From Owenia fusiformis (lineage: Eukaryota; Annelida; Polychaeta; Sabellida; Oweniidae), in NCBI GenBank assembly GCA_903813345.2, contig CAIIXF020000010.1, positions 26,312,425-26,376,424 of the forward strand: a stretch of DNA of 64,000 nt. The letters are read 5' to 3'. Each line of letters starts with the position of its first letter. The stretch's first letter is position 1. A model generated the notes under the pieces. The model worked only from the letters and a program-made list of their open reading frames with translations, was not told the DNA's origin and made no database searches. This document shows, one piece after another, positions 11,689 to 56,840 of the stretch. The position numbers and the translations under genes were made by a program.

Positions 11689-12309
11689 TTGCTAAGCTCT
11701 GGTGGTTGTGTTGCTAAGCTCTGGTGGTGGTGTTGCTAAGCTCTGGTGATCTTGCTATACTCTGGTGATGGTGTTGCTAAGCTCTGGTGATGGTGTTACA
11801 TGCTAAGCTCTGGTGGTGGTGTTGCTAAGCTCTGGTGGTGATGTTGCTATACTCTGATGGTGGTGTTGCTAAGCTCTGATGTTGGTGTTGCTATACTCTG
11901 GTGGTGGTGTTGCTATACTCTGATGGTGATGTTGCTATACTCTGATGGTGATGTTGCTAAGCTCTGGTGATCTTGCTATACTCTGGTGATGGTGTTGCTA
12001 AGCTCTGGTGATGGTGTTACATGCTAAGCTCTGGTGGTGGTGTTGCTAAGCTCTGGTGGTGATGTTGCTATACTCTGGTGGTGGTGTTGCTAAGCTCTGG
12101 TGATCTTGCTATACTCTGGTGATGGTGTTGCTAAGCTCTGGTGATGGTGTTACATGCTAAGCTCTGGTGGTGGTGTTGCTAAGCTCTGGTGGTGATGTTG
12201 CTATACTCTGATGGTGGTGTTGCTAAGCTCTGATGTTGGTGTTGCTATACTCTGGTGGTGGTGTTGCTATACTCTGATGGTGATGTTGCTAAGCTCTAGT
12301 GGTGATGTT
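11689..12309 (+). repeat. 22-bp minisatellite with higher-order structure
   Basis: The basic unit TTGCTAAGCTCTGGTGGTGG plus TG is repeated about 27 times with AAG/ATA and GGT/GAT variants. A longer module recurs at about 11749, 11969 and 12106, marked by GATCTTGCTATACTCTGG and by TGTTACATGCTAAGC. This shows higher-order amplification. The 22-bp period breaks any reading frame. Confidence 0.9.
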
Positions 12310-12559: not shown

Positions 12560-13165
12560 CCATGAAGGACTTTTTGTTCGAAAAATCGTGAATTTCTTTA
12601 AAACTAACTACACGTATCTTTTGATAAGGGATAATTCATACCAATGCACAGCATTCACCCTCACATGTTTTTTGCCGAAAAAATTAAGAAAATCGGTTCA
12701 TAAATAAGCGATGAATGAAATGAACTCATCAATCCATGAAATTTTAGTTCTCATAGAAAAAAATGGTACAATAATATCTAAAACATAATATATTCTTCCT
12801 TTTAACCTGGTTAGACAATCAACATTGGTTTATATTTGAAGTTTAGCATATTTTGAAAAGATTGACATAGAAAAAAAATTCATTTTTTCAAAAAAAATTT
12901 GCCACCTGAGTGAGTCATCGTTGACATCACACAGGTTGCAAAATGTTTTTGAAACAGTGTGTCCTTTGTCCAATATTTGCATAGGTGTTAAAAAGATAAT
13001 ATTTTTTGAAATGTATGGTGGAATATTTGATGATTGAAAAATTCAACTTTTTTTGAAAAATGGCGGGAAATTTGAATATTTGAGAAATGAAAAGCTGACA
13101 ACTTTTTTTTCAAAAAAACAACATATTTTCAAACATTACACGGGGACTTAAATATTTCTTGCTTT
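12560..13165 (+). repeat. Dispersed repeat R1, copy 1
   Basis: Marked by GCCACCTGAGTGA, GAAAAATGGCGGGAAATTTG and AATATTTGAGAAATGAAAA. The same blocks occur at 20370-20900 on the same strand and at 56030-56840 inverted. No TIR or coding frame was seen. Confidence 0.7.
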
Positions 13166-17252: not shown

Positions 17253-18268
17253 CACGCCCGGTGATCGTGAATATGGGACGGAGGGGGGAGCAGGCAATTT
17301 CTGCTAGGAAATTCAACAAATCTGGAAGATTTATTTTTTCAAGAAAAAGTTTACTATTGAATTGCTAAATGGATAGGCGCACGGTATGGTAGAATATGTT
17401 AGGTTTTCTGGGATTTTTTCTGAAACGATATGCATCTAAGGTATGAGATCTATTAAAAAAGGCGCAAGGCCATCAACAGGCACAAATCAACGTTTTTGCT
17501 ATAAATCAAGCAACAATGGTCTGGACGACCTGTAATAAATACTTGTAAGTGATGTTATCATAACTAAATTAATGTAATTGCTGAATTTATATAATAAGTT
17601 TCCATATGTGAAATAAAAAATAATCGAAAATAATGAATTTGGGACGGAGGGGGGGAGGGGACGGAGGGGGGGAGCAATATGTATATAAGACATGATTAGA
17701 GATGTTTCGCGACTTTAAGTCCTTTTACTCCAAATGTCCCCATTTTTCAGTCTCCAAGGGTATATCATCCAGTTTCTTACTAGGTTAACGAGTTCATTTT
17801 TCAAATACAAGAATTCGTGTGAAGTTGTTTCACTTTATAGAATTATCACTCCCCCCCTCCGTCCCCTCCCCCCTCCGTCCCATTTTAATTATTTTCGATT
17901 ATTTTTTATTTTACATATGGAAACTTATTTTATAAATTCAGCAATGACATTAATTTAGTTATGATAACATCACTTACAAGTATTTATTACAGGTCGTCCA
18001 GACCATTGTTGCTTGATTTATAGCAAAAACGTTGATTTGTGCCTGTTGATGGCCTTGCGCCTTTTTTAATAGATCTCATACCTTAGATGCGTATCGTTTC
18101 AGAAAAAATCCCAGAAAACCTAACATATTCTACCATACCGTGCGCCTATCCATTTAGCAATTCAATAGTAAACTTTTTCTTGAAAAAATAAATCTTCCAG
18201 ATTTGTTGAATTTCCTAGCAGAAATTGCCTGTTCCCCCCCTGTCCCATATTCACGATCACCGGGCGTG
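17253..18268. mobile_element. CAC-terminus fold-back element, family A (TSD TAGAT)
   Basis: A 1016-bp palindrome with about 420-bp arms. The ends are CACGCCCGGTGATCGTGAAT and its reverse complement, flanked by exact 5-bp duplications TAGAT (17248-17252, 18269-18273). The arms contain GACGACCTGTAATAAATAC and G-rich GGGACGGAGGGGGG near the centre. A shorter family member, 43262-43643, has the same ends and its own 5-bp duplication. CAC ends with a 5-bp duplication match the Transib/RAG superfamily. No transposase is present. Confidence 0.85.
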
Positions 18269-29535: not shown

Positions 29536-29540
29536 TAAAG

Positions 29541-30215
29541 TCATCTTCCTTTTTGCTTTCTATTTCCTTCCTCATTTGTACTCTGCCCAACATCTTGTTG
29601 TCATCTTCCTTTTTGCTTTCTATTTCCTTCCTCATTTGTACTCTGCCCAACATCTTGTTGTCATCTTCCTTTTTGCCACATGCTTTCTATTTCCTTCCTC
29701 ATTTGTACTCTGTCCAACATCTTGTTGTCATCTTCCTTTTTGCTTTCTATTTCCTTCCTCATTTGTACTCTGCCCAACATCTTGTTGTCATCTTCCTTTT
29801 TGCTTTCTATTTCCTTCCTCATTTGTACTCTGCCCAACATCTTGTTGTCATCTTCCTTTTTGCCACATGCTTTCTATTTCCTTCCTCATCTGCATTCTGT
29901 CTAACATCTTATTCTGATCCTCTTTATTTCCTCACTTGTACTCTGTCTAACATCTTAATGTCATCTTCTTTTTGCCACATGCCTTCTATTTCCTTCCTCA
30001 TTTGCACTCTGTCCAACATCTTGTTGTTATCTTCCTTTTTGCCACATGCTTTCTATTTCCTTCCTCATTTGTACTCTGTCCAACATCTTGTTGTCATCTT
30101 CCTTTTTTTGCCACATGCCTTCTATTTCCTTCCTCATCTGCACTCTGTCTAACAGCTTATTCTGATCTTCTTTATTTCCTCATTTGTACTCTGTCTAACA
30201 TCTTGCTGCACTTAT
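29541..30215. repeat. 60/66-bp minisatellite
   Basis: The unit is TCATCTTCCTTTTTGCTTTC, TATTTCCTTCCTCATTTGTA, CTCTGCCCAACATCTTGTTG (60 bp), with a 6-bp CCACAT insertion in some copies. There are about eleven copies, more diverged toward the right. Because 60 and 66 are multiples of three, several frames stay open on both strands. The - strand reads repeats of MLGRVQMRKEIESKKEDDNK. Later copies carry frameshifts. Confidence 0.9.
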
Positions 30216-42441: not shown

Positions 42442-43261
42442 TAAGTGTGGCCAGGTTACATGAAGTAATCTAGTCTTGCTTCAAGACCCTGGAGTATCTA
42501 CTCTAACAAGTGATGTGACAATGGCTTGTAGCTAGACTAGGAGAAATAAAATCAATGCTGACAATAGAATTTAGATACAATAAAATGTTCATGATATTCA
42601 TACATAAGATATCACCCTACTTTGCGTTCATTATACTCGTATACAGTAATGCTCCAACTTGATTTAATCATAAATGCCCAAGAGCTCAAACTTTGCATGC
42701 AACTGTATTATTTCAATAAAAAGAGTCCCAGAAAAGGGATGTTTTTGTGTGTGTTTTCTATTGTCCAATGATTATCATGCTTTCTTACGATTGATTGCAG
42801 TAATAACAAATAAGATTGATCTTAGCATTCCCTGACGATTTTCTGACGTCAGAGAATCATGGTCATTAGACTCATTACCGTGTGTGTGATTACATAATTC
42901 AAAACTAAACCGCTTCAAGTTTTCACTGTGAAGTTCTATGTGACGGTTTCGGCCAGATAAAATCTTTCAAACCATCTTAGAAGTGATTAATCAGTCCAAC
43001 TCTTTTGGATTGCGTTCATGAATTTATAGCCAGTTACGTTGTCAGACAATAACGCCAACCTGAGGCCCGGGAATACAGTAACACAGTCTGATGCATGCGT
43101 ATACCCACCTACCCACCTACGTGGAACATGATACAGTCATTGAAGGGTTCAATTTTAAAGATTATTAAATCTCAAAATAGCTCAAATTATTAACATTTCT
43201 ACAATTCCGGCTTTATTTTATGACTAGACAGATGACAGATCCATAAATAAAGGCATATGTA

Positions 43262-43643
43262 CACGCCCGGTGATCGTTCAAAATGGATGGAGGGGGAGTA
43301 GGCGATTTCTACAAGAAAACTCAACAAATTTGGTAGATTTATTTTTTCAGGAGAAAATTTACAACTGAATTTCCAAATGAATAGGCGCAATGGCATAATA
43401 TGTTAGGTCTTCTAGTATCTTTTTGAACTGATACGCTTCTAAGATATGAGATCTATTAAAAGAGGCGCATCATCGCCAACGTGCAAAAGTCAATGTTTTT
43501 GCTGTAAATCAGGCAACAATGGTCTACACGACCTGTAATAAATAGGTATAAGGGACGTTATTATCTCAACACTTATGACATTGCTCACTCAGAAATCGCC
43601 TAACCCCCCCCCCTCCATCCATTTTGTACGATCACCGGGCGTG
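43262..43643. mobile_element. CAC-terminus MITE, family A (TSD ATGTA)
   Basis: Ends CACGCCCGGTGATCGTTCAA and CGATCACCGGGCGTG, with about 48 bp of TIR and exact ATGTA duplications (43257-43261, 43644-43648). The interior is collinear with one arm of the 17253-18268 palindrome (GAGATCTATTAAAAGAGGCG, GACCTGTAATAAATA). Confidence 0.88.
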
Positions 43644-44749: not shown

Positions 44750-45210
44750 CTAGACAAAATCATTGAACCCCTTGCGCCTAGCACTCGGGCGACAGTGGGT
44801 TGAGCTAAAATCAGCATCGTCAACACTAATGTCATGTGTGCTAGAGGAACTTATCGACGAATTATTATTACATCGCCCACTCTTGTAATGGATTTTATAC
44901 GGGGATTGCTCTATATGCGAACCCAAGGAGTTCATGAATTCCGAATGTGACAGTCGATGATTATCCATGCAGTCTTGTTTGCACCAAAGAGATCCATTCG
45001 AGCGCTGAATTAGAGGGTCATTCGAATTGTTTATTTGAGACCCATCTCCGCTGCCATAACGACCCACATCACTCAAATCATTCAAAACTAGAGGAATTGG
45101 TGTTTTCGTGTAAGTTCGTGCATTCCCATAGATCACGGCGTCTTGGTAGTTACTACGGAGACAGCAACAGCATCGTCTAAACTCCCTCTTAAAGTCGATC
45201 ATATAAAAGC
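44750..45210 (-). CDS. Long C-terminal tail of the receptor (distal acceptor, terminal exon)
   Basis: The acceptor CTCTGGTACTTGCAG gives an exon starting at 45210 in the same phase as the short-tail choice. It completes Gly228, then FYMIDFKREFRRCCCC (helix 8 with four consecutive cysteines at residues 241-244, likely palmitoylation sites), then a 136-residue hydrophilic tail. The tail is rich in Ser and Asn, including SSISSSSTHD, and ends GFNDFV followed by TAG at 44750. Invertebrate receptors of this group normally have a long cytoplasmic tail used for phosphorylation, arrestin binding and internalisation. The last residues D-F-V fit a class III PDZ ligand pattern; that is an inference. The upstream ATG in the same frame (45260) is intronic and is not a start. 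Confidence 0.85.
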
Positions 45211-45240
45211 CTGCAAGTACCAGAGCAGAATGGTCAATGG
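45211..45240 (-). promoter_or_regulatory. Distal 3' splice site of the receptor tail choice
   Basis: On the - strand it reads CCATTG, then ACCATTCTGCTC, then TGGTACTTGCAG at the exon junction. It is nearly a copy of the proximal site 265 bases upstream in transcription order. Both are followed by an open frame in phase 1. Confidence 0.6.
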
Positions 45241-45320
45241 GGAAAGACAGCGGGTAACACAAACAGGACGGATCTACATGTAGCTTTGGGACGGGTTTTT
45301 CCCAGTACGTGCTCAGATAA

Positions 45321-45475
45321 TTATACAGCCTCGGATGAGGGCCACTGTCTTAACATCTCAATAGCACGGATAAGTTCAGGGGTGCTAGATGTGTCAGATT
45401 CCCGCCCTTTACGCTTGAACGACAACCTACGAAACCAATTCGTCACGGTATCTCTGAATGCATTAGTGCACATCC
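45321..45475 (-). CDS. Alternative short C-terminal tail of the receptor (proximal acceptor)
   Basis: After the TM7 exon, the first usable acceptor on the - strand is CTTGGTACTTGCAG, with the exon starting at 45475. In the required phase it completes Gly228, then reads MCTNAFRDTVTNWFRRL, SFKRKGRESDTSSTPEL and IRAIEMLRQWPSSEAV before TAA at 45321. This is a plausible helix 8 (F-R-x-x-V then W-F-R-R-L) followed by a basic, Ser/Thr-containing tail with no cysteine cluster. The receptor would end 50 residues after the split glycine. No AATAAA is seen between this stop and the second acceptor at 45210. A transcript using this site therefore probably runs on through the long-tail region as 3' UTR, making it an alternative 3' splice site rather than a separate last exon. 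The tail is inferred; no transcript was checked. Confidence 0.68.
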
Positions 45476-45508
45476 CTGCAAGTACCAAGCGACATCTATT
45501 AGCAATGG
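45476..45508 (-). promoter_or_regulatory. Proximal 3' splice site of the receptor tail choice
   Basis: On the - strand the region begins CCATTG and ends TGGTACTTGCAG, followed by G. The distal acceptor at 45211-45240 has the same CCATTG start and the same 12-base TGGTACTTGCAG end at almost the same distance (33 versus 30 bases). The shared sequence suggests that one acceptor arose from the other by local duplication. Confidence 0.6.
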
Positions 45509-45910
45509 CGAAAACCTAGCGGATAAATGGATAGCGGGGCGATCACATACATATTTGCACACGTTGCAAGCGATTTCAGCTCGACAGTTACTTCTGATCA
45601 TGAAGACCCCAAAGCCTAAATAAACTGAGTTCGTTCATTAAGCAATGGACATATTAGATGGCGATTGGAGAATAGAATCGAATCAAAGGAAATAAGGGAG
45701 GTGACAGGGCTAAGGGCGAGACATGGGTCATAGCTAGATATATGATGAATGGGGTAGAGTTACCGGTAGGTGGGGGGGGGGCAGAGCTAGGGAAGATAAG
45801 GGGGACACTGTCAGAGGGATGGAGGGGAAAAGTAGTACTAAAGAGAGGATGGAAGATTAGTCTATGGTTAGAGATGAAGAATTAGTTGAGTTAATCAGCG
45901 AGATGCTATA

Positions 45911-46686
45911 CAGTGTGGCTCAATAAAAATGTTACAAGTCAATATTTTTAATAATTTTGGCGTTTACCCTAAAATATACTTGAGTTCTTGAAAAACAAGC
46001 TCTATTGATTAATTTGACACAAGCAGTTTTGAAATCCTTCCATGGTTCACTGCACAGGAGAGATTTTATTAATTTATGTGAAATCTGACTTGCGCCAACT
46101 TCTCAGCGGTTTAACCATGTCATGCCTTTACCGGAAGACATTCAAAGATTCCAACGCCAGCAGAATGGTAATTTTTGTGTAGTGACAACAGTGTGGCACA
46201 CTTCCTTACAGGTAAAGGGTTGTGACAGAACTCTGCAAATTATTGGATCATGGCATTGATTAACCCAGTCGAGTGGCCTCCAGCGTTACAGGACTTAAAC
46301 ACCCCTAAATTCCCTCTCGTGGGGCCACATAAATACCAAGGTCTTCACAACACGGCGGCCATGTTAGTACAAAGACAGATAGAAAAATTACAGAAATGAA
46401 TCAGTAAAATGTCAATTTCCAACTGTGAATAAGATTGAATGTTAAAGGAATGCTTTCTTTGCCTTTGTTCTTTTTTACCACTGAGAAGTTGGCGCAAGTC
46501 AGATTTCACATGAGTCAATGAAATATGTCCTGTGTAGTCAACCATGGAAGGATTTAAATCTGCTTGGTGTCAAATTAATCTAGAAAGCTTGCTTTTTAAG
46601 AATTCAATTTGCATTTCAGGGTAAATGCCAGATTATAAAAGATATTGACCATTTTGTACTTGTAACATTTTTATTGAGACACCCTG
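45911..46686 (+). mobile_element. mariner-type element relic with about 200-bp inverted arms
   Basis: Ends CAGTGTGGCTCAATAAAAAT and ATTTTTATTGAGACACCCTG between TA dinucleotides. Mirroring extends inward to AATCTGACTTGCGCCAACTT at 46083-46102 and its complement at 46484-46503. The centre (46230-46340) contains PVEWPPALQDLNTPKF and LSWGHIN in different frames, matching the WPPRSPDLTPxDFFLWGxxK block of mariner transposases. It is broken by stops and frameshifts. It lies in the last receptor intron, upstream of the tail exons. Confidence 0.75.
46110..46345 (+). pseudogene. Degenerate mariner-like transposase fragment
   Basis: A short remnant around the third catalytic-acid region of the transposase. 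VEWPPALQDLN is in one frame and TPLNSLSWGHIN in another. No intact frame remains. Confidence 0.6.
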
Positions 46687-48306: not shown

Positions 48307-48395
48307 CATATACGATTGGGTCCATACAGGAGTTGGAAACTGCAAATATGAAAAGTCCTCTTTGTATTTTTGGGTCGACCTTCCTGGCGTTTTCA
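48307..48395 (-). CDS. GnRH/AKH/corazonin-type receptor, exon carrying ECL3-TM7
   Basis: An 89-nt exon is bounded by the acceptor GTATTTTCAG (start 48395) and the donor GTGAGT (end 48307). It enters in phase 2 and leaves in phase 1. It encodes [19 protein letters not shown], then [12 protein letters not shown]7 carries D-P-I-V-Y in place of the general NPxxY motif (residues 223-227). Aspartate at this position is usual in GnRH-type receptors, where it pairs with TM2. The last base starts a glycine codon that is completed by GG or GC in either of the two downstream acceptor choices. So the reading frame remains open through both alternative tails. Confidence 0.93.
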
Positions 48396-48954: not shown

Positions 48955-49755
48955 GGGTGCATTTATTGCAACTATGGTATAGAGGGAGGGATCATGAATT
49001 GCAGCTGGAGTAAAGAGGGAGGGAGCATATATCGCAATTGGAGAAAAGAGGGAGGGAGCATTTATTACAGTTGGTGGAAAGAGGTAGGGAGCATAGATCT
49101 ATATTTCAGCTGAAGTAAAAAAGGAGGGAGCATACAGTATATTACAATTGGAGAAAAGAGGGGGAGCATATATTGCAGTTGAAGAAAAGAGGGGGGAGAG
49201 GGTGTTTTTATTACAATTGGATTAAACAGCGAGGGAGCATATATTTCTCCTGAAGTAAAGAGAGAGAGAGAGAGAGAGAGCATATATTGCAGTTGGAGAA
49301 AAGATGGAGGGAGCGTATAGCAGTTGGAGAAAAGAGAGAAAAGAGGTAGGGAGCATATATTTCAGCTGAAGTGAGGAGAGAGCATATATTGCAGTTGGAA
49401 TAAAGAGGAAGGGAACATTTATTGCAGTTGGAGTAAACATGGGCTTTCAACTCTAATTGAAAGCCCATGGAGTAAAGAGGTAGGGAGCATATAGTTCAGG
49501 TGAAGTAAAGAGGGAGGGAGCATCTATTGCAGTTTGATTAAAAAGGGAGGGAGCATGTATTGCAGCTGGAATAAAGATGTAGGGAGCATTTATTGTAGTG
49601 GGAGTAAAGAGGTAGGGATCATATAGTTCAGCTGAAGTAAAGAGGGAGGGAGCATTTGGGAATTTATTGTGTATGGAGTAAGGGGTAGGAAAAGAAGTAG
49701 GGGGCATTTTTGCAGGAGTAAAGAGGTATGGAGCATTTATTGCAGCTATTGACAT
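48955..49755 (+). repeat. Purine-rich minisatellite in receptor intron
   Basis: About 18 diverged units of the type GAGGGAGGGAGCATATATTG followed by CAGTTGGAGTAAA, unit 36 to 48 bp. They include a (GA)n tract at 49260 and a short palindrome CATGGGCTTTCAA at 49438-49471. Open frames on the - strand here are products of the repeat. Confidence 0.85.
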
Positions 49756-50011: not shown

Positions 50012-50075
50012 GAATCAAACCACCAAAGGCAGCTCATGACGAAGTAAGGAGTCCAGCACACAAGGAATACCAGAA
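50012..50075 (-). CDS. GnRH/AKH/corazonin-type receptor, exon carrying TM6
   Basis: A 64-nt micro-exon lies between the acceptor TATTTTTCAG and the donor GTAAGT. It enters in phase 1 and leaves in phase 2. With the split codons it reads V-LVFLVCWTPYFVMSCLWWFD-S. CWTPY (residues 183-187) is the class A TM6 CWxP toggle motif, and the WWFD end sits at the start of ECL3. It is too small for ORF calling. It is supported by exact phase match to both neighbours, canonical sites on both sides, and the fit of the translation between the ICL3 exon and the TM7 exon. Confidence 0.92.
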
Positions 50076-50221: not shown

Positions 50222-50329
50222 CTATCATAACGGTCATTTTGAGGGTTCTTATCCTGGCCCTCTCTATGTTTCCAATACCCGATCTTCTCAGCCGAGTTTC
50301 AGTTTTTTGAGCCAAGCTACAAGTCTCTT
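50222..50329 (-). CDS. GnRH/AKH/corazonin-type receptor, exon carrying ICL3 and start of TM6
   Basis: A 108-nt exon is bounded by the acceptor TGTTTCAG (exon starts at 50329) and the donor GTGAGTG (exon ends at 50222). It enters and leaves in phase 1. The split codon makes E141, then ETCSLAQKTETRLRRSGIGN, then IERARIRTLKMTVMI. The R-A-R-x-R-T-L-K-M-T run is the usual basic end of ICL3 leading into TM6 in this receptor group, where G-protein contact occurs. The exon is too short to stand out as an ORF and was found by extending the splice phase from the TM5 exon. The acceptor reads CAGAAG, a tandem NAGNAG site, so transcripts with or without one glutamate are possible. The intron to the next exon is only 146 bp. 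Confidence 0.9.
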
Positions 50330-53496: not shown

Positions 53497-53701
53497 CTTG
53501 ACTTTCTCGAGATTTCTTCGTGATCTCGAAGAGTATCATAGAGTACGCAAAAGTGATGACGATCAGGGGTAGAACATATATAGCTATCAGCACAAATAGG
53601 TTGTAGGCGAGTTCGTGCTTCTCACTGGGGAAAAAGTTGAACGTAACACATTGGGTGTAGTCGGGAAATTCTGGGTGAGCCTCGACATGGAAAATAAAGC
53701 T
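53497..53701 (-). CDS. GnRH/AKH/corazonin-type receptor, exon carrying ECL2-TM5
   Basis: The acceptor TTTCTATTTCCAG precedes AGC at 53701, and the donor GTAGGT follows 53497. The 205-nt exon adds residues 73-140 of the fragment. FIFHVEAHPEFPDYTQC supplies the ECL2 cysteine (residue 90) that pairs with the TM3 cysteine, followed by VTFNFFPS. TM5 is AYNLFVLIAIYVLPLIVITF with the conserved proline at residue 117. Then ICL3 begins with FEITKKSRESQ. FHVE..P..QCVTF.FFPS is characteristic of invertebrate GnRH and corazonin receptors. The exon enters in phase 0 and leaves in phase 1. An alternative donor four bases downstream (GTAACT) would put a stop in the next exon, so the upstream GTAGGT is the supported site. 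Confidence 0.93.
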
Positions 53702-56029: not shown

Positions 56030-56840
56030 TCTAAAGTTTGAAAATATTTTTTTATCATTCATTTACTATTTGTCAGGACTTAAAAAGTGATTTTAGAGAT
56101 ATTTGAACAAAAAATTTTTTTTGAAAAAAAAGTTGTGAGCATTTCATTTCTCAAATATTCAAATTTCCCGCCATTTTTCAAAAAAAGTTGAAATTTCTTA
56201 ATCATCAAATATTTCTTAATGCATTTCAAAAAAGATTATATTTTTAACACCAATGCAAAGATTGAACAAAAGACACTATTTCAATAATAAAATGTCATAT
56301 TTAATGGGCCACTTCAATGTTTTAGCTTATCAAAAATATTTTGAAACATTAGTGATGTCACTAAGGTAACAAAAACTTTTTGAATTTTTTTTTTCGATGT
56401 CAATCTTTTCTTAATATGCTAGACTTTCATAAAAAAACAATGTTGATCGTCTAACCATGTTAAAAGGAAGAATAAATTATGTTTTAGATATCATTGTATA
56501 AGAACTAAAATTTTGAAATGCATTTTTCTCAGAACCATTTTCATACACTGATAAGTTCATTTCTCGCTTGTTTATCAACCGATTTTCCTAATTTTTTCGG
56601 CAAAAAACATGGGAGGATGTATGCTATGCATTGGTATGAATTGTGGCTAATTAGAAGATATGAGTGACCTCTAAAAGTTGGTTTTAGATAAATTCACAAA
56701 TTTTGGAACAAAAAGTCTATCAAAAACCACTTTTTGAAATTAAAAAAAAAAGTTTCACATATCACACTTTGATAACATTGGGTAAGACTACAATATAAGC
56801 CAAAGTGGTTTAAACTTTACATGGGGCCTTTAAAGAACTT
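56030..56840 (-). repeat. Dispersed repeat R1, copy 3 (inverted)
   Basis: AAATTTCCCGCCATTTTTCA and AGTGGTTTAAACTTTACATG mark it as the reverse complement of the copies at 12560 and 20370. It lies within the 10 kb receptor intron. Confidence 0.7.

Follow-up and report, generated by a model that had tools for sequence, protein, structure and literature searches.

Twin 3' splice sites and two candidate C-terminal tails in an Owenia fusiformis receptor gene of the GnRH/AKH/corazonin family

Results

A receptor gene of the gonadotropin-releasing hormone (GnRH), adipokinetic hormone (AKH) and corazonin family in the annelid Owenia fusiformis probably gives rise, through alternative 3' splice sites (acceptors), to two receptors that differ in helix 8 and C-terminal tail. 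The gene lies on the minus strand of a 64,000-nucleotide (nt) stretch of contig CAIIXF020000010.1 (positions 26,312,425 to 26,376,424; hereafter the window), where a class A receptor gene is represented by its 3' half, with four exons between 53701 and 48307 that encode transmembrane helices TM5 to TM7. The TM7 exon closes ...DPIVY/G in phase 1, and beyond it two acceptors, A (first exon base 45475) and B (45210), each open a frame in that phase. The peptide from A starts GMCTNAFRDTVTNWFRRLSFKRKGRESDTSSTPELIRAIEMLRQWPSSEAV and ends 50 residues after the shared Gly, while that from B starts GFYMIDFKREFRRCCCC and continues to 152 residues after it. Both peptides place six residues between the Tyr of DPIVY and a Phe with a basic residue directly after it, a pattern written (x)6F[RK] below and with the spacing usual for helix 8. 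Both acceptors score 9.7, the top value among the six acceptors of the gene, by the splice-site matrix used here. The sequence-only reading had proposed two competing acceptors of one phase after TM7 with a helix-8-like beginning at each, and the exon borders, frames and acceptor scores agree with it; its coordinates, phase, translations and tail lengths were likewise all correct when the sequence was re-read. As the 265 nt between A and B are not a multiple of three, an A transcript without further splicing would carry B as 3' untranslated region (UTR). Both tails finish X-[DE]-X-V, as had been claimed, a terminal motif from which, by itself, PDZ binding by both may be proposed.

Judged by its sequence, the gene is the 3' half of an animal receptor gene of the GnRH/AKH/corazonin family. 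When the joined TM5 to TM7 peptide, extended by the first part of tail B, was searched against PDB sequences, GnRH receptor chains took the first three places among the best 60 of 219 matches (E 6.9e-40, 3.3e-29 and 4.9e-26), followed by an oxytocin receptor (E 3.7e-16). This ranking confirms the receptor class named from sequence and makes this superfamily the nearest one to TM5 to TM7 among receptors. Those best 60 matches hold no AKH or corazonin receptor, so that GnRH, AKH or corazonin may each be the branch to which the gene belongs. The TM5 exon alone matches Pfam 7tm_1 with E 2.6e-6, its 27.5 bits falling a little short of the curated cut-off (30.5), and a Pfam search of the TM7 frame and both tail frames returned no receptor family. 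A text search of the available papers for the receptor motifs returned 0 papers.

Tail B resembles the tail of a known GnRH receptor. Against the tailed GnRH receptor of PDB 9u4y, TM6-7 alone scores 48.7 bits, rising to 59.9 with tail A and to 79.1 with the start of tail B, a gain of 11.2 bits for A and 30.4 bits for B. The order is the same in a local test against the printed stretch of the 9u4y chain (53.5 for TM6-7, 63.9 with tail A, 82.2 with the start of tail B); of 300 shuffled versions of tail A, 2 do at least as well as the original there. By anchored helix-8 similarity tail B ranks first of 3171 AG sites. Four adjacent Cys residues follow its helix 8, at residues 14-17 counted from the Gly, and its end is Ser-rich. 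AlphaFold2 run on tail B alone gave nothing usable (mean predicted local distance difference test, pLDDT, 29.8).

The two acceptors share more than the short motifs noted previously, the common stretch amounting to about 50 nt of intron. Directly upstream of the two AGs the flanks agree in 39 of 53 alignment columns, 45 of them gap-free. The 60-nt flanks reach a local score of 21.5, which none of 5000 shuffles attains whether the sequence is shuffled freely (maximum 15.5) or with CAG kept (maximum 17.0); for 100-nt flanks 1 of 5000 free shuffles, and none of 5000 that keep CAG, attains the score of 23.0. When 1395 60-mers ending in CAG were compared with flank A, flank B came top at 21.5 and the next two scored 15.0, and scores for the gene's other 14 acceptor pairs lie at 7.0-12.5. 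The motif TGGTACTTGCAG occurs without mismatch only at the two acceptor flanks in the whole window, and with up to two mismatches 5 times against 3.84 expected. Its spacing from CCATTG does not match between the flanks as had been supposed, the gap being 15 nt at A and 12 at B.

This likeness fades farther upstream and breaks off sharply at the AG. Over 45, 90 and 150 nt downstream, the similarity between exons A and B lies at or below the shuffle mean, and for 45 nt the score is reached by 1751 of 2000 shuffles. The tail peptides score -5 over 11 anchored residues, a value that 21150 of 100000 shuffles reach. A duplication of the acceptor together with the start of the tail exon, as first suggested, is thus supported for the acceptor region and not for the exon: flanks alike and exons unlike mean that the acceptor region, not the exon, is common to A and B, and with exon DNA and peptides scoring at shuffle level we reject a copy of the tail exon. 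The flank is not a dispersed repeat either, since the next matches in the window score 15.0 (A) and 14.5 (B) against 21.5 and there is no third copy. Nor did an RNA docking site able to pair with the common flank, of the sort found at some mutually exclusive exons, emerge over 48400-44500, where the best pairing values (-29.5 for A, -30.7 for B) are no better than those of 12 shuffles of flank A (-28.7 to -40.7; flank B was left unshuffled).

The chief alternative to two working tails is a decoy at A: the copied flank would see little or no use, the 50-residue frame would be open by chance within a GC-rich patch, and only B would matter. We regard this as unlikely. In dinucleotide shuffles of the 3.1-kb intron an acceptor as strong as A appeared in 240 of 400, then with a tail of at least 51 residues in 15 and with (x)6F[RK] in 1, and in 2000 shuffles of the local 490 bp the corresponding counts were 521, 24 and 1. 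The 24 cases, together with the absence of DNA likeness between the exons, favour a chance frame. The full combination of acceptor strength, tail length and helix-8 pattern, by contrast, arose in none of the 400 intron shuffles and none of the 2000 local ones. Among AG sites on both strands, 44 of 6491 have an acceptor score of at least 9.6 and 5 of these 44 open at least 51 residues in phase 1; at any acceptor score, the pattern and a frame of at least 51 residues coincide at two of the 6491, namely A and B. The gain of tail A against 9u4y and the rarity with which shuffled A tails equal its local score also argue against a decoy. In anchored helix-8 similarity, tail A is equalled or surpassed by 685 of its 100000 shuffles.

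Several observations weigh against a functional tail A. By anchored helix-8 similarity 15 of the 3171 AG sites, A included, equal or exceed it. Codon preference, with the exons of the gene itself as reference, is 0.052 per codon in the A frame against 0.120 and 0.229 in the shifted frames (0.064, 0.066 and -0.153 on the opposite strand); as the shifted frames score higher, codon preference does not single out the A frame, as a chance opening would have it. Of 970 overlapping intron windows free of stops, about 3.6 per cent match the codon score of A, and A sits where the GC content is raised (0.477, then 0.491 beyond it, with an intron mean of 0.355). A pattern search for relatives gave 0 matches in viral contigs and 14 in genome contigs, 0 of them confirmed.

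Tail A is one third of the length of tail B and lacks the Cys cluster. It carries a Ser/Thr cluster, SDTSST, which we take to be of the type that arrestin is thought to read. AlphaFold2 on tail A alone places helices at residues 5-19 and 31-43 (block pLDDT 57-75). A further AG with (x)6F[RK] inside the A frame, at 45451, has an acceptor score of -2.5 and opens 43 residues. As candidates for a third tail acceptor, 45807 and 45786 score at least 8.7 but open just 24 and 17 residues. No poly(A) signal of A's own (AATAAA or ATTAAA) was found between A and B. An AATAAA at 45030-45035, inside the tail B frame, could end A transcripts; we estimate that this hexamer arises by chance about once per kilobase.

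It is very improbable that A is instead an in-frame 45-nt cassette, joined to B through a donor TTC/GTAGGT at 45431 and placing 15 extra residues ahead of helix 8 of tail B. Its length is divisible by three and preserves phase 1, GTAGGT recurs at the TM5 exon donor and TTC also precedes the TM6 exon donor, but the donor scores 2.4 where the gene's four donors score 4.0, 10.2, 10.3 and 10.8, and the conserved B helix would be moved away from TM7.

Discussion

Our results suggest a model in which two equal acceptors, 265 nt apart, would compete for the single TM7 donor, with both probably in use. Choice of acceptor B would give a tail of ancestral type, with helix 8, a Cys cluster that is likely palmitoylated and a Ser-rich end. 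Choice of acceptor A would give a 50-residue helix 8 and tail without the Cys cluster, leaving B out of frame in the 3' UTR. The two receptor forms would be expected to bind one ligand and to differ in the membrane anchoring of helix 8, in arrestin recruitment and in internalisation. Tail A is not tailless and retains SDTSST, and a difference in degree is therefore more likely than an on/off switch. For vertebrate GnRH receptors, passages of PMC3834291 and PMC5592718 describe the tail as required for rapid desensitisation and internalisation, and the mammalian type I receptor as being without one.

How the twin arrangement arose may be viewed in either of two ways: the acceptor region may have been copied alone, or it may have been kept alike by selection while the exons diverged past recognition. 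We put forward only tentatively, as a possible but rather doubtful history, that about 50 nt of branch point and acceptor were copied upstream without the exon, or kept by selection, and that intron sequence there became a second helix 8 and tail. On that reading the matched flanks, with equal scores and the putative branch-point A at -24 in each, would constitute a balanced pair whose use a single factor could tune.

Alternative C-terminal tails are a kind of variation already known, both in this superfamily and in an Aplysia tachykinin-type receptor. In Rhodnius prolixus, splicing gives the corazonin receptor alpha and beta forms a longer or shorter C-terminus and both answer the peptide at nanomolar concentration, according to passages of PMC4971055; that receptor shares superfamily and C-terminus variants with the present gene, while two acceptors with matching, possibly copied, flanks are a feature of the latter as compared with those passages. 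The Crassostrea gigas AKHR1, of the same superfamily and first cloned as a GnRH receptor, is a single gene of eight exons with splice variants A-D, of which A and B are activated by AKH and C and D are not; the passages of PMC5024129 that describe it mention no twin acceptor. Drosophila and Aedes AKH receptors, again of the superfamily, resemble the present gene in having splice variants of unequal C-terminal length, and the function of their extended C-terminals is said to be unknown in a passage of PMC3281483. The Platynereis corazonin receptor isoforms CrzRa and CrzRb probably arise via an alternative splice acceptor, as stated in part of PMC6969523, but the variation concerns the first 33 bp of exon three and not the tail. 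Outside the superfamily, Aplysia tachykinin-related peptide receptors A and B come from one gene and differ only in the intracellular C-terminus and in desensitisation; the passages of PMC11365428 mention no shared acceptor flank. Among the literature titles and abstract openings listed, none concerns a receptor tail served by acceptors with twin flanks.

Should both junctions prove to be used, a single gene would produce two receptors that share their ligand-binding bundle but differ in helix 8 and tail. This would amount to a natural experiment on the role of the tail in GnRH-type receptors, where the mammalian type I receptor lost it. The boundary between shared flank and unrelated exon would, if the reading holds, show an alternative tail arising by acceptor copying and not by exon copying.

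Additional features of the window

The exons and flanks are collected in Table 1. No Pfam family was found for TM1-4 at E up to 1 in the three minus-strand frames of the ~54-64 kb part of the window, and the gene therefore probably extends beyond the window. No RNA families were found within the 64 kb.

Table 1. Receptor gene features in window coordinates; for each tail the higher coordinate is the first exon base and the lower the end of the stop codon.
Feature	Position	Strand	Evidence
End of extracellular loop 2 (ECL2) and TM5, coding exon	53497..53701	(-)	GT-AG borders; Pfam 7tm_1 match; inside GnRH receptor match
Third intracellular loop and TM6 start, coding exon	50222..50329	(-)	GT-AG, phase kept; GnRH receptor alignment
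TM6 coding exon	50012..50075	(-)	GT-AG borders; GnRH receptor alignment
TM7 coding exon with DPIVY, phase 1 end	48307..48395	(-)	GT-AG borders; GnRH receptor alignment
Intronic flank of acceptor A	45476..45526	(-)	branch-point-like CTAAT, A at -24; 39/53 columns identical with flank B
Candidate tail A, 50 residues after shared Gly, stop included	45321..45475	(-)	acceptor score 9.7; (x)6F[RK]; +11.2 bits vs 9u4y
Intronic flank of acceptor B	45211..45257	(-)	branch-point-like TTGAC, A at -24; aligned with flank A
Tail B, 152 residues after shared Gly, stop included	44750..45210	(-)	rank 1 among 3171 AG sites in helix-8 similarity; +30.4 bits vs 9u4y

Two introns of the gene contain repeats. Much of the TM6-TM7 intron is taken up by a tandem array (48977-49655) with a 33-bp unit and about 19.6 copies, and the twin-acceptor intron holds a fold-back element with inverted arms at 45938-46110 and 46477-46649 (173 nt, 77% complementary, 366 nt apart). 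Dispersed inverted copies, in four pieces and 78-96% complementary, lie at 12610-13118 and 56116-56665, and one copy is situated upstream of the TM5 exon. Elsewhere, inverted arms at 17283-17671 and 17851-18239 (389 nt, 96% complementary) have a third copy about 25 kb off, at 43256-43585, with 78-84% identity, and together look like a small family of mobile elements. Large tandem arrays downstream of the receptor gene occupy, in the order listed, 11689-12309 (units of 22/133 bp) and 29540-30107 (units of 60/187 bp).
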